From contig JAQBPX010000011.1 in assembly GCA_028287305.1 (NCBI GenBank), positions 62,001 to 126,000 of the forward strand: a DNA stretch of 64,000 bases, read 5' to 3'. Both the position numbers and the translations under genes were made by a program. Positions 56,579 through 62,170 of the stretch are shown piece by piece. Under the pieces are notes generated by a model, which saw only the letters and a program-made list of their open reading frames with translations, was not told where the DNA came from and ran no database searches. The stretch is from Gemmatimonadota bacterium (GTDB lineage: Bacteria > Gemmatimonadota > Gemmatimonadetes > Gemmatimonadales > Gemmatimonadaceae). The stretch's first letter is position 1. Every line of letters begins with the position of its first letter.

Positions 56579-56633
56579 GCGAACTGCTTGCCCTTGGGCG
56601 GGCAACCCAGTACGATGAAGGACAACTGATTTT

Positions 56634-56689
56634 CCGTGGCGATTTATCGGCAACTTGCGACCACGTTAAAAACTTCGCTAAAGCGCCGG
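56634..56689 (+). promoter_or_regulatory. SAM-II-type riboswitch upstream of metH
   Basis: The order CGTGG (56635-56639), GATTTA (56641-56646), CGGC, CTTGC, CCACG (56661-56665), TTAAA (56666-56670) and GCTAAAG (56677-56683) reproduces the SAM-II (metA) aptamer. CGTGG/CCACG form stem P1. CGGC at 56648-56651 can pair with GCCG at 56685-56688 to close the pseudoknot. The conserved GAUUU, UUAAA and GCUAAA loop bases are all kept. It lies 52 nt before metH, a SAM-cycle gene, with a terminator hairpin between. SAM binding should reduce expression. Identification is by eye from the known consensus. Confidence 0.85.
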
Positions 56690-56694
56690 CCCGA

Positions 56695-56727
56695 GGGCCC
56701 ACGCGCTTCATGCGCATGGGCCCTTTT
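56695..56727 (+). terminator. Terminator hairpin between the SAM-II aptamer and metH
   Basis: GGGCCCACGCGC (56695-56706) pairs with 56712-56723 around loop TTCAT with one mismatch, followed by TTTT at 56724-56727. It directly follows the aptamer and ends 8 nt before the metH ATG, so it could act as the expression platform by transcription attenuation. GGCCC at 56688-56692 can compete for the left arm, giving an alternative fold. Confidence 0.7.
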
Positions 56728-56735
56728 CGTACGTC

Positions 56736-59700
56736 ATGTCCAACCCCAAGGCAGCACCCGATCGTTCCCGCTCCGCCTATCTCGAAGCCCTCACCAGGGG
56801 CGTCCTGATCTATGACGGCGCGATGGGCACCAACATCCAGCTCCATCATCCCACGCCGGAGGACTTCGGCGGCAAGGCGCTGGAAGGGTGCAACGACAAC
56901 CTGGTGCTCACGCGCCCGGACATCATCCAGTCCATCCACGAGTCGTTCCTCGCGGTAGGCTGCGACGTGGTGGAGACGTGCACCTTCCAGAGCACGCCGC
57001 ACCGCCTGCGCGAGTGGGGGATCGAGGAGAAGGCGCGCGAGCTGAACGTGCAGGCCGCGCGCATCGCCCGCGCCGCCTGCGACAAGTACGCGACGCCGGA
57101 GCATCCGCGCTTCGTGGCCGGCTCCATCGGGCCCACCGGCATGCTCCCGAGCTCCAGCGACCCGGTGCTCTCGAACACCACCTTCGAGGAGCTGGCCGCG
57201 AACTACTACACGCAGGCGAAGTACCTCGTGGAGGGTGGCGTCGACGTGCTGCTCGTCGAGACCGCGCAGGACATCCTCGAGGTGAAGGCCGCCATCGCCG
57301 GCTTCGACCGGCTGTTCACGGAGCTCGGCTACCGCATCCCGGTGCAAGCGCAGATCACGCTCGACACGAGCGGGCGCATGCTGCTGGGCACCGACATCGC
57401 GAGCGCGAGCACCACGCTCGAGGCGCTCCCCGTGGACATCATCGGGCTCAACTGCTCCACGGGCCCGGAGCACATGCGCGAGCCCGTGCGGTGGCTCGCC
57501 GACCACGCCGCGCGGCCGATTTCGGTGATCCCGAATGCAGGGTTGCCGCTGAACACCGGCACCGGCGACGCGATCTATCCGCTCGAGCCGGTGCCCATGG
57601 GCCAGGCGCTCGCCGAGTTCGTGCGCGACTACGGCGTGCGCATCGTGGGTGGGTGCTGCGGCACGAGCCCCGGGCACCTGGCGGAGATCGTGAAGCAGGT
57701 GCGCGCGGTGGAGTCGAAGGCGCCGCGAGCGCACGGGCTGCACGACACCGCCGGCACCGTGCGCGGCTCCCGCGTGCCGCGCGCCAGCTCGGCCATGCGC
57801 GCGACCGACTTCGACCAGGATCCCCGGCCGCTGATCGTGGGCGAGCGCGTGAACTCGCAGGGCTCGCGCAAGGTGAAGCAGCTGCTCCTGGCCGACGACT
57901 ACGAGGGCATCGCATCCGTGGCCCGCGCGCAGGTCGAGAGTGGCGCGCACATCCTCGACGTCTGCGTGGCGCTCACCGAGCGCGGCGACGAGGCGGCGCA
58001 GATGTCGGAGGTCGTCAAGCTGCTCTCGATGACCGTGGATGCGCCGATCATGATCGACTCCACGGAGGCGAGCACGATCGAGGCGGCCCTCGAGCACATC
58101 CCCGGCCGCGCGATCATCAACTCCATCAACATGGAGAATGGCCGCGAGCGCATCGACCGCGTGGTGCCGCTGGCGAAGAAGCACGGCGCGGCGCTGGTCG
58201 CGCTCACCATCGACGAAGTGGGGATGGCGAAGACGCGCGAGCGAAAGCTGGAGATCGCGCGCAAGATCCACGACATCGTGGTGGGCGAGTACGGACTCGC
58301 ACCCGGCGACCTGATCTTCGACGACCTCACCTTCACCCTCGCCACCGGCGACGTGGAATGGATCGACTCGGCGAAGGAGACGATCGAGGGCATCCGCCTG
58401 ATCAAGCGCGAGCTGCCGGGGACGTACACGTCGCTCGGCGTGTCGAACGTCTCGTTCGGGCTCTCGCCGAGCGCGCGCGCGGTGCTCAACTCGGTGTTCC
58501 TGCACCACTGCGTGGAAGCTGGACTCGACATGGCGATCGTGAATCCCGCGCACGTGATGCCGTACGCCGAGATCCCGGAGGGCGAGCGCGAGCTGGCGAA
58601 CGCCCTGGTGTTCAACAAGAGCCCCGAGGCGCTGCAGCACTTCATCGAGTTCTACTCGAATGCGGGTCCATCTGCCGCGAGCACGGGCGCGGCGGCCGTC
58701 GATCCGATGGCCGACCTCGACGCCGCGCAGCGCGTGCACTTCATGGTGGTGCATCGCAAGAAGGAGGGGATCGAGGACGCGCTCGACGCGGCCGGCGTGC
58801 GCGCCGAGCCGGTGCGCGTGCTCAACGAGGTCCTGCTCCCCGCCATGAAGGAAGTCGGCGACAAGTTCGGCGCCGGTGAGCTGATCCTGCCCTTCGTGCT
58901 GCAGAGCGCGGAAGTGATGAAGAAGGCCGTGAAGCACCTCGAGAGCTTCCTCGAGCGGGCCGAGGGCTACACGAAGGGCAAGGTGGTGCTGGCCACCGTG
59001 TATGGCGACGTGCACGACATCGGCAAGTCGCTCGTGAACACGATCCTCAGCAACAATGGGTATACAGTGTTCGACCTCGGCAAGCAGGTGCCGGTCAACA
59101 CGATCATCGAGAAGGCGCAGGAAGTCGGCGCAGATGCCATCGGGCTGTCCGCACTGCTGGTGAGCACCAGCAAGCAGATGCCGCTCTGCGTGCAGGAGCT
59201 CGACCGGCGCGGCATCCACATCCCGGTACTGATCGGGGGCGCGGCCATCAATCGCCGCTTCGGGCGGCGCGCCATGTTCGTGGACGGGGAGCGGGCGTAC
59301 GACTCCGGCGTGTTCTACTGCAAGGATGCGTTCGAGGGGCTGGAGACGATGGACGCGCTGCAGGACTCGACGCGTCGCGTCGCCGCGATCGACAAGCTCA
59401 TCGCCGACGCGCGGAGCGACATGTTCCTGCGGGCGAACGTCGGCAAGGACATCGCGAGCGGAGATGCCGGCGGCGAGAGGAGCGACGTCACGAGCGATCA
59501 CGCCGTGCCAGTCGCACCCTTTTTCGGCACGCGAACGCTCACCGACATTCCACTCGATGACGTGTTCGCCCTGCTCGACCGCGATGAGCTCTTCCGGCTG
59601 CAGTGGGGCGGTCGCGGTTCCGGCGAGGCGTATGACAAGGCGGTGCGCGAGGAGTTCGAGCCTGCGCTCGCGAGGCTTTCCGCACAGGCAAAGGCGGAGG

Positions 59701-60290
59701 CATGGCTCACGCCGCGGGTGATCTATGGCTACTTCCCTTCGCAGTCCGTGGGAAATGACGTGGTGATCTACGAGCCGGCCGCGTACTCGGCAGACGGATC
59801 GCTGAAGGAGATCGCGCGCTTCCACTTCCCACGCCAGGAAGGGCGCGAGCGGCTCTGCATCGCCGACTACTTCCGCTCGGCTTCCTCCGGCGACGTGGAC
59901 GTCACCGCCTTCCAGATAGTGACCGTCGGCGATGCCGCCACGGAGAAGTTCCAGCACCTGCAGGACGCCGGCGAGTATTCGGAGGCCTACTACGTCCACG
60001 GCCTCGCAGTGGAGGCGGCCGAGGCATTGGCGGAGTGGACGCACCGGCACATGCGTCACGAGCTGGGCCTGCCCCCGGGACGGGGCAAGCGCTACTCGTG
60101 GGGCTACGGCGCATGCCCGGACCTCGAGGATCACGAGACGCTCTTTCGCATCCTCCCCGCAGAGCGGGAGCTGGGAATGACGCTCACGAGTGCGCACCAG
60201 CTGATTCCCGAGCAGAGCACCGCCGCGATCATCGTGCATCACCCGCAGGCGAAGTACTACGTGGTGCGCGCCGAGGGCGCGGGCGCATGA
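56736..60290 (+). CDS. metH: Cobalamin-dependent methionine synthase
   Basis: This is the full-length four-module enzyme of 1184 residues. The homocysteine domain has zinc Cys residues in GLNCSTGP (about 240) and VGGCCGTSPG (about 308). The methyl-THF (pterin) domain includes VGERVNSQGSRKVKQLL and the DSTEAS segment. The B12 domain has cobalt-ligand His760 in GDVHDIGKS, and the C-terminal SAM-dependent activation domain has RYSWGYGACPDL. It transfers methyl from 5-methyl-THF to homocysteine. The gene is preceded by a SAM-II-like aptamer and overlaps the next gene by ATGA, so both are under that control. Confidence 0.97.
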   Translation: MSNPKAAPDRSRSAYLEALTRGVLIYDGAMGTNIQLHHPTPEDFGGKALEGCNDNLVLTRPDIIQSIHESFLAVGCDVVETCTFQSTPHRLREWGIEEKARELNVQAARIARAACDKYATPEHPRFVAGSIGPTGMLPSSSDPVLSNTTFEELAANYYTQAKYLVEGGVDVLLVETAQDILEVKAAIAGFDRLFTELGYRIPVQAQITLDTSGRMLLGTDIASASTTLEALPVDIIGLNCSTGPEHMREPVRWLADHAARPISVIPNAGLPLNTGTGDAIYPLEPVPMGQALAEFVRDYGVRIVGGCCGTSPGHLAEIVKQVRAVESKAPRAHGLHDTAGTVRGSRVPRASSAMRATDFDQDPRPLIVGERVNSQGSRKVKQLLLADDYEGIASVARAQVESGAHILDVCVALTERGDEAAQMSEVVKLLSMTVDAPIMIDSTEASTIEAALEHIPGRAIINSINMENGRERIDRVVPLAKKHGAALVALTIDEVGMAKTRERKLEIARKIHDIVVGEYGLAPGDLIFDDLTFTLATGDVEWIDSAKETIEGIRLIKRELPGTYTSLGVSNVSFGLSPSARAVLNSVFLHHCVEAGLDMAIVNPAHVMPYAEIPEGERELANALVFNKSPEALQHFIEFYSNAGPSAASTGAAAVDPMADLDAAQRVHFMVVHRKKEGIEDALDAAGVRAEPVRVLNEVLLPAMKEVGDKFGAGELILPFVLQSAEVMKKAVKHLESFLERAEGYTKGKVVLATVYGDVHDIGKSLVNTILSNNGYTVFDLGKQVPVNTIIEKAQEVGADAIGLSALLVSTSKQMPLCVQELDRRGIHIPVLIGGAAINRRFGRRAMFVDGERAYDSGVFYCKDAFEGLETMDALQDSTRRVAAIDKLIADARSDMFLRANVGKDIASGDAGGERSDVTSDHAVPVAPFFGTRTLTDIPLDDVFALLDRDELFRLQWGGRGSGEAYDKAVREEFEPALARLSAQAKAEAWLTPRVIYGYFPSQSVGNDVVIYEPAAYSADGSLKEIARFHFPRQEGRERLCIADYFRSASSGDVDVTAFQIVTVGDAATEKFQHLQDAGEYSEAYYVHGLAVEAAEALAEWTHRHMRHELGLPPGRGKRYSWGYGACPDLEDHETLFRILPAERELGMTLTSAHQLIPEQSTAAIIVHHPQAKYYVVRAEGAGA

Positions 60291-62170
60291 GTGACGCGAT
60301 CGCGCGGCTGCTCGATCCCAGTGCCATCGTGCTGTTCGACGGCGCAATGGGCACGATGCTGTACTCGCGCGGCGTGTTCATCAACCAGTGCTACGACGAG
60401 TTGAACGCGCGCGCGCCAGAGCTCGTGCGCGACGTGCACCGCGCGTACGTGAGCGCGGGCGCCGAGGTGCTCGAGACGAACAGCTTCGGCGCGAACCGCA
60501 TCAAGCTCGAATCGTATGGCCTCTCGCACCAGGTCGCCGAGCTCAATCGCAGCGCAGCGAAGCTGGCGCGTGACGCGGCACGCGAGGCGCGCGGCCGAGA
60601 GGTGCTGGTGGCCGGTGCGGTGGGGCCGCTCGGCCTGCGGCTCGAGCCCTACGGGCCGACGAGCGTGGACGAGGCACGCGCGGCGTTTCGCGAGCAGATG
60701 CAGGCGCTGCGCGAGGGTGGCGCGGACCTCTTCATCCTCGAGACCTTCGGCGACCTGCACGAGATCGACCAGGCGATTCGGGCAGCGCGCGAGGTGGATG
60801 CGAGCGTGCCGGTGATCGCGCAGATGACGATCGGGGTGGACTGCCACACGCCCTTCGGCGCGAGTCCGGAGGACGTGGCGCGCGCCCTCGACCACTGGGG
60901 CGCCGACATCGTCGGGCTGAACTGCTCGGTGGGTCCGCAGACGATCCTCGACGCCATCGAGAAGATGTCGGCCGTCACGCAGCGCAAGTTGAGCGCGCAG
61001 CCGAACGCCGGCATGCCGCGCGACGTCGGCGGCCGCTCCATGTACATGGCCAGCCCCGAATACATGGGCACCTATGCGCGGCATCTCGCACAGGCCGGTG
61101 CGAAGGTCGTGGGCGGATGCTGCGGCACCACGCCGGAGCACGTGAAGGCGATGGCGGAGGGCGTGCGCCCCCTGCGGCCACGCGCCGCGCTGGCTGGGGC
61201 CGATGCAGCGACACAGGGCGCGAGCGTTCGCGTGAACGCATCACCCGAGGTACAGGTGCAGCCCGTGCCGATGGCCGCGCGCTCGCGGTGGGGCGCGAAG
61301 GTGGCTGCGGGCCAGTTCGTGACGAGCGTGGAGATCGTGCCGCCCAGGGGAGTCGATGCCACGCGCATGCTCGCCGACACGCGCACCCTCAAGGCGGCCG
61401 GCGTGGACGCCGTGAACGTCCCCGACGGGCCGCGCGCGCAGAGCCGCATGGGCGCGCTGCTCACGAGCGTGCTGATCGAGCAGCAGTCAGGGATCGAGAC
61501 GGTGATCCACTACGCCTGCCGCGATCGCAACCTGCTCGGCATGCTCAGCGACCTGCTGGGCGCGAGCGCGGTGGGGCTGCGCAACCTGCTGCTGATCACC
61601 GGCGACCCGCCGAAGATGGGACCGTATCCCGATGCGACCGCCGTGTTCGACATCGACTCCATTGGGCTCACGAACCTGGTGCGCAACCTGAACCACGGCC
61701 GCGATCCCGGTGGCAATGCGATCGGGCAGCCCACGCAGTTCACGATCGGAGTGGGAGTGAACCCCGCGGCGATCGACCTGGAGCACGAGGTCCGACGTTT
61801 CGAGTGGAAGGTGGAAGCGGGCGCCGAGTACGCCATCACCCAGCCGGTGTTCGATCCCGCGCAGCTCGAGCGCTTCCTCGACCGGATCGCGCACGTGCGC
61901 ATACCGGTGGTGGCGGGGATCTGGCCGCTGGTCTCGATGCGCAACGCCGAGTTCATGGCCAACGAAGTGCCGGGCGTCTCGGTGCCCGAGGGGATCCTGG
62001 CGCGGATGCGGAAGGCGAGCGAGCAGTCGAAGGAGCATGCGCTTGCCGAGGGCATTGCCGTTGCGCGCGAGATGCTGGAGCGCGTGCGGCCCGTGGTGCA
62101 GGGCGTGCAGGTCTCGGCGCCCTTCGGCCGCGTGGAACTGGCGCTGGAGGTCTTCGCGGGTTCATTGTGA
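60287..62170 (+). CDS. Homocysteine S-methyltransferase / methylene-THF reductase fusion (YitJ-like)
   Basis: This 627-residue protein has two parts. Residues 1-300 form a homocysteine methyltransferase barrel with zinc Cys in GLNCSVGP and VGGCCGTTPEH. Residues about 325-620 form a MetF-like flavin barrel (VTSVEIVPPRGVD, LLLITGDPPKMG, YAITQPVFD). Such fusions (Bacillus YitJ type) reduce methylene-THF to methyl-THF and may pass methyl groups to homocysteine. It supplies the methyl donor for MetH, encoded directly upstream with an ATGA overlap. Both genes carry a homocysteine-binding domain, which is redundant and notable. Confidence 0.93.
   Translation: MSDAIARLLDPSAIVLFDGAMGTMLYSRGVFINQCYDELNARAPELVRDVHRAYVSAGAEVLETNSFGANRIKLESYGLSHQVAELNRSAAKLARDAAREARGREVLVAGAVGPLGLRLEPYGPTSVDEARAAFREQMQALREGGADLFILETFGDLHEIDQAIRAAREVDASVPVIAQMTIGVDCHTPFGASPEDVARALDHWGADIVGLNCSVGPQTILDAIEKMSAVTQRKLSAQPNAGMPRDVGGRSMYMASPEYMGTYARHLAQAGAKVVGGCCGTTPEHVKAMAEGVRPLRPRAALAGADAATQGASVRVNASPEVQVQPVPMAARSRWGAKVAAGQFVTSVEIVPPRGVDATRMLADTRTLKAAGVDAVNVPDGPRAQSRMGALLTSVLIEQQSGIETVIHYACRDRNLLGMLSDLLGASAVGLRNLLLITGDPPKMGPYPDATAVFDIDSIGLTNLVRNLNHGRDPGGNAIGQPTQFTIGVGVNPAAIDLEHEVRRFEWKVEAGAEYAITQPVFDPAQLERFLDRIAHVRIPVVAGIWPLVSMRNAEFMANEVPGVSVPEGILARMRKASEQSKEHALAEGIAVAREMLERVRPVVQGVQVSAPFGRVELALEVFAGSL

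Follow-up and report, generated by a model that had tools for sequence, protein, structure and literature searches.

The window, the whole 64,000-nucleotide (64-kb) stretch of DNA analysed, carries on its forward strand a complete metH gene whose end overlaps, by ATGA and as in an operon, a gene for a bifunctional homocysteine S-methyltransferase/MTHFR. The closest named matches of metH come from Gemmatimonadaceae/Gemmatimonadetes MAGs, with up to 77-78% identity. The leader directly before metH contains a genuine member of the SAM-II riboswitch family, and the features considered below are as follows.

56588-56616 (+): probable promoter, with -35 TTGCCC (56588-56593), a 17-nt spacer and -10 TACGAT (56611-56616); from sequence and related leaders
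56622-56634 (+): ACAACTGA stretch just before P1, probable transcript start; recurs in most related leaders
56626-56701 (+): SAM-II aptamer, full-length RF00521 match
56635-56639 (+): 5' strand of P1, CGTGG; from sequence and the RF00521 match
56641-56645 (+): conserved GATTT (GATTTA at 56641-56646); from sequence, RF00521 and related leaders
56647-56651 (+): 5' strand of the P2 pseudoknot, (U)CGGC, with CGGC at 56648-56651; from sequence
56661-56665 (+): 3' strand of P1, CCACG; from sequence and the RF00521 match
56666-56670 (+): conserved TTAAA; from sequence, RF00521 and related leaders
56677-56683 (+): conserved GCTAAAG; from sequence, RF00521 and related leaders
56681-56708 (+): proposed antiterminator, AAGCGC (56681-56686) with GCGCTT (56703-56708) and GGCC (56688-56691) with GGCC (56696-56699); from fold and family co-variation
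56685-56689 (+): 3' strand of the P2 pseudoknot, GCCG(G), with GCCG at 56685-56688; from sequence
56695-56727 (+): intrinsic terminator, GGGCCCACGCGC-TTCAT-GCGCATGGGCCC followed by TTTT; from sequence, fold and shuffle test
56736-60290 (+): metH, cobalamin-dependent methionine synthase, 1184 aa (NCBIfam TIGR02082, 1099.8 bits; Pfam domains)
60287-62170 (+): bifunctional homocysteine S-methyltransferase/MTHFR (NCBIfam NF006396, 743.5 bits; Pfam PF02574 and PF02219)

A preliminary description of this DNA had assigned the leader to the SAM-II type from the P1 arms, GATTTA, TTAAA, GCTAAAG and a CGGC/GCCG pseudoknot. All of these elements lie where it placed them, and the class is supported by an Rfam covariance search, in which RF00521 (SAM_alpha/SAM-II) matched 56626-56701 (+) with 43.0 bits against a gathering threshold of 36 (E = 2.4e-6 across the 64-kb window; 2.3e-8 for 601 bases). 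RF00521 is the sole Rfam family above threshold within the window; the SAM-II long loop family (RF01726) reached 18.3 bits, against a gathering threshold of 44. P1 encloses a loop and P2 joins this loop to the 3' tail, the CGGC/GCCG pairing being extendable through U47-G89 to UCGGC/GCCGG, and the match stands upstream of genes of methionine/SAM metabolism (metH and the BHMT/MTHFR fusion). By its family membership the aptamer is predicted to bind SAM. The leaders of related genomes conserve GATTT, TTAAA and GCTAAA together with both helices, as the SAM-II assignment had called for. In 72 of 74 leaders placed in a single register P1 does not vary, and one compensatory change (CGAGG/CCTCG) is seen; an apparent co-variation of P1 was an artefact of two mixed registers and, since the helix is nearly invariant once the register is fixed, it is not taken as evidence. 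The outer pair of P2 does co-vary, being paired in 87/113 related leaders against a mean of 58 and a maximum of 70 in shuffled controls, and the middle and inner pairs are almost invariant.

The preliminary description had further regarded a copy in this DNA as extending the known range of SAM-II. No isolated copy is involved: RF00521 matches were found in 202 of the 298 genomes drawn from Gemmatimonadota and in 38 of 40 close relatives, and the genome of the window holds two. Across the phylum the matches sit before metH, metF, metY/metX, hom, thrC and panB; the genes downstream belong to methionine and aspartate-family metabolism, and each is named only where Pfam/NCBIfam or an unambiguous sequence confirmed it, as longest-ORF calls in these GC-rich genomes include wrong-frame ORFs. 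SAM-I (RF00162) was detected in 56 of 296 Gemmatimonadota genomes, most of these belonging to two other families of the class, and gave no match in the genome of the window. At nine tested metH loci from Chloroflexota and other non-Gemmatimonadota bacteria SAM-II was absent from all, SAM-I occupying the same place before metH in two (Chloroflexota L049 and L078), and a landmark scan of the remaining non-Gemmatimonadota metH loci revealed no SAM-II. Since SAM-II is widespread in Gemmatimonadota and was found at none of the outside metH loci examined, it is here a trait of the phylum. In a literature search, which says nothing on databases, SAM-II and Gemmatimonadota were not found together in one paper.

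Several further observations concern the distribution. Both SAM-I (1-4 copies) and SAM-II are present in G063, G066, G073, G075, G079, G091, G162, G175, G211, G219, G267 and G299 (one genus); Barrick and Breaker (2007; PMC2258182) had not encountered the two classes in a single species. An unexpected target is panB, whose product ketopantoate hydroxymethyltransferase uses methylene-THF in the synthesis of pantothenate; the gene lies 3' of SAM-II in L003, L030, L113, L121, L125, L179, L191 and L192. A PLP-dependent threonine-synthase-like gene takes this position in L159, L178, L194 and L195 (Pfam only for L159), and homoserine dehydrogenase genes do so in L184, L154 and L190 (Pfam for L154 and L190), both targets being branch points of the aspartate family. 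In L170 the gene is that of a TonB-dependent receptor, possibly serving uptake of a sulfur compound or cobalamin. SAM-II elements without a terminator stand directly before a homocysteine-methyltransferase gene in L112, L114, L115, L117 and L130, and also in L007 and L120; in the five named first, a few nucleotides separate P2 from the start codon, a layout that is likely a translational platform (same order).

The metH transcript probably starts a few nucleotides before P1, as in its relatives, where TTGMC, about 17 nt and TANNNT are followed by a ACAACTGA-like stretch a few nucleotides 5' of P1; a strict consensus promoter scan did not list the TTGCCC-17-TACGAT pair of the window. Downstream of the aptamer, the adjoining hairpin with TTTT that had been noted from the sequence was borne out: the GC-rich hairpin at 56695-56723 has a predicted energy of -26.0 kcal/mol, equalled by 0 of 2000 shuffles, and the TTTT at 56724-56727 ends 8 nt upstream of the start codon of metH (ATG at 56736). 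Its weak points are a short T-run (UUUUCGU) and one A-C mismatch in the stem, because of which it was missed by a strict mechanical scan. A terminator hairpin follows P2 in 106 of the 113 distinct related leaders that were parsed, and judging from the family transcription would be expected to terminate at 56695-56727. The premise that SAM-II usually lacks an obvious terminator platform is contradicted by the literature. Putative terminators were reported in many SAM-II representatives by Corbino (2005; PMC1273637), in alpha/beta-Proteobacteria SAM-II is, according to Barrick and Breaker (2007; PMC2258182), more often linked to terminators than any other class, and a terminator-linked SAM-II before metZ was studied by Scheuer (2022; PMC9373788).

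As drawn, the proposed antiterminator would be incompatible with both P2 and the terminator. For the window leader it is what the nascent platform folds into at minimum energy (-16.6 kcal/mol), and when the GCUAAA/P2 strand is blocked in the fold, as bound SAM would do, the antiterminator is lost (-5.0) and the terminator still forms (-26.6). Taken alone, the window leader has a pairing no better than chance, its own antiterminator reaching -14.6 against a mean of -14.3 with other terminators and being matched by 297/2000 and 111/2000 shuffles; support for the antiterminator thus rests on the family and not on this leader by itself. Among terminator-bearing leaders two pairing modes, each competing with both P2 and the terminator, are predicted. 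In mode A the partner of the terminator's 5' arm (for instance GGCGGC) is the P2 5' strand lying within the P1 loop (for instance GCCGCC). In mode B the 5' arm and loop of the terminator (for instance GCGUUUUGGCG) are taken up by GCUAAA with the P2 3' strand (for instance CGCUAAAACGC); the window leader is of type B. When terminators were swapped among 51 dissimilar leaders, the best own pairing reached -13.1 kcal/mol, against -11.1 for swapped ones (0/20000 permutations). Only mode A, through the P2 5' strand, co-varies in the L1 class GCC*/GAGGC* (0/20000), and only mode B, through GCUAAA and the P2 3' strand, in the other L1 class (0/20000), where the classes were set after looking at the sequences and relatedness among leaders is only partly removed. 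By the thresholds used, an antiterminator pairing is present in 106 of 106 terminator-bearing leaders.

Taken together, these data suggest that the SAM-II element at the 5' end of the metH-MTHFR operon transcript is very probably a transcriptional OFF switch acting by attenuation, and the control of metH and the MTHFR fusion that had been predicted is supported. In the absence of SAM, GCUAAA and the 3' strand of the pseudoknot would hold the terminator's 5' half in an antiterminator, and RNA polymerase would read on into metH. With SAM, P2 would lock the GCUAAA and P2 3' strands inside the aptamer, freeing the 5' half of the terminator, which would then form and stop transcription before metH. 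We infer this direction, OFF with SAM and ON without it, because the blocked GCUAAA/P2 strand loses the antiterminator yet keeps the terminator in the fold; as the terminator, once complete, exceeds the antiterminator in stability, switching must be kinetic.

Other readings of the leader have to be weighed. That SAM-II acts on translation, with the hairpin at 56695-56723 near the start codon, or P2, blocking ribosome access, fits the end of the hairpin about 12 nt 5' of the metH ATG, the lack of a clear Shine-Dalgarno sequence, and the 7 of 113 leaders (same order) without a terminator, most of which have the start codon immediately behind P2 (e.g. GCC-AGG-ATG). Across the family, however, the majority of metH leaders carry the termination signature of a hairpin followed by 4-6 T, at a distance from the ATG that varies widely, and we regard translational control as quite unlikely here. 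It is also unlikely, if a little less so, that the aptamer is accompanied by a constitutive terminator unswitched by SAM and yielding mainly a short RNA. A precedent has been proposed for S. meliloti metA (PMC9373788), and the chance-level antiterminator of the window leader would agree with it; against it stand the family-level co-variation of the antiterminator pairings with the aptamer strands and the occurrence of such pairing, by the thresholds used, in all 106 terminator-bearing leaders. A chance resemblance without riboswitch function might be entertained for a motif of only about 60 nt, but it is already contradicted by the E-value over the window, by the matches in close relatives and across the phylum, and by their placement before methionine genes, and is extremely improbable.

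In addition to the attenuation proposed for metH, at least 12 of 161 distinct leaders scanned contain a Met- or Cys-rich short ORF between the riboswitch terminator and the gene (L122, L131, L144, L146, L147, L154, L157, L172, L186, L188, L190 and L222; less surely L207). Where checked, the order in these hybrid leaders is SAM-II with its terminator, the Met/Cys-rich leader peptide and a second terminator, and the target genes are metY/metX-like, hom, lysC-like, aminotransferase, cysH-like and ATP-grasp genes. The peptides include the following.

L154, before homoserine dehydrogenase: MMVHAPTMMMMMMRMT
L188, before a metX-like gene: MRTIMSMTMRMMRMMRMTMRMTM
L122, before a Cys/Met-metabolism PLP enzyme: MTNQTAISMMCMTMRM
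L157: ...SMCMCMGMC
L147, Cys: ...CARTCACTCACACT
L001, Cys/Met, in the genome of the window: MIARTLNCMCMCHHWS

A count of short ORFs having four or more Met within 10 residues gave 7 in 133 entries (6 distinct, one locus having been entered twice); shuffled sequences gave 0.0 and the reverse strand 1. A Met/Cys-rich ORF in L198 was dropped because it seems to be metH read out of frame, and so was a Cys-rich frame in L186 with no nearby stop; the Met-rich frame of L186 (MRMRVRMRVRMR...) does stop. A second strong terminator follows most hybrid peptides, its 5' arm pairing with the end of the peptide ORF; in L001, by eye, GAGGGCCGGGGGC pairs with GCCCCCGGCCCCCTC. This leader belongs to the second SAM-II copy of the window's genome (G000 C24:150062 onward, leaders L001/L212), where the riboswitch terminator is followed by the MIARTLNCMCMCHHWS... 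peptide, the second terminator, an ATP-grasp (RimK-like) gene and a SfnG/SsuD-like sulfone or sulfonate monooxygenase gene, and the copy is probably one of the hybrid leaders. These arrangements resemble SAM-II placed in series with a classical attenuator of the ribosome-mediated type, and would sense SAM and then charged Met/Cys tRNA. We consider it likely, with less assurance than for the metH switch, that the phylum has a SAM-II regulon with two interchangeable antiterminator layouts, part of which, the second copy probably included, adds a Met/Cys peptide and a second terminator to form a hybrid of riboswitch and ribosome-mediated attenuation. In our literature search neither an attenuator with a Met leader peptide nor a SAM-II/leader-peptide tandem turned up, and the term "leader peptide" is absent from a review of tandem riboswitches (PMC9481103).

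The window riboswitch itself is ordinary, a known SAM-II class with well-documented terminator linkage, and the hybrid leaders are more novel; if true, they would offer a testable case of SAM and aminoacyl-tRNA sensors in series on one transcript. The wider survey documents an entire phylum outside Proteobacteria in which SAM-II is a main element of methionine control. Coupling of the SAM-II pseudoknot to termination was not established experimentally according to Barrick and Breaker (2007; PMC2258182), and the large leader set lets it be read from co-variation.

Compared with SAM-II as first described (RF00521, the metA motif; Corbino 2005), the window leader has the same P1, P2 pseudoknot and GATTT/TTGC/TTAAA/GCTAAA segments, a promoter just upstream, a terminator downstream, methionine genes and a score above gathering, and differs in its host phylum, Gemmatimonadota, and in a short P2 of 4-5 bp. 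SAM-I (RF00162) shares the ligand and has a different fold. The S. meliloti metZ SAM-II (Scheuer 2022) likewise carries behind its aptamer a terminator that is predicted to fold once SAM is bound, whereas the gene here is metH and the phylum another. Like the tandem systems reviewed in PMC9481103 (SAM-II/SAM-V and double SAM-II), the hybrid leaders of the relatives have SAM-II and a terminator as their first element; unlike them, they have as the second a putative Met/Cys leader peptide attenuator and not a riboswitch.
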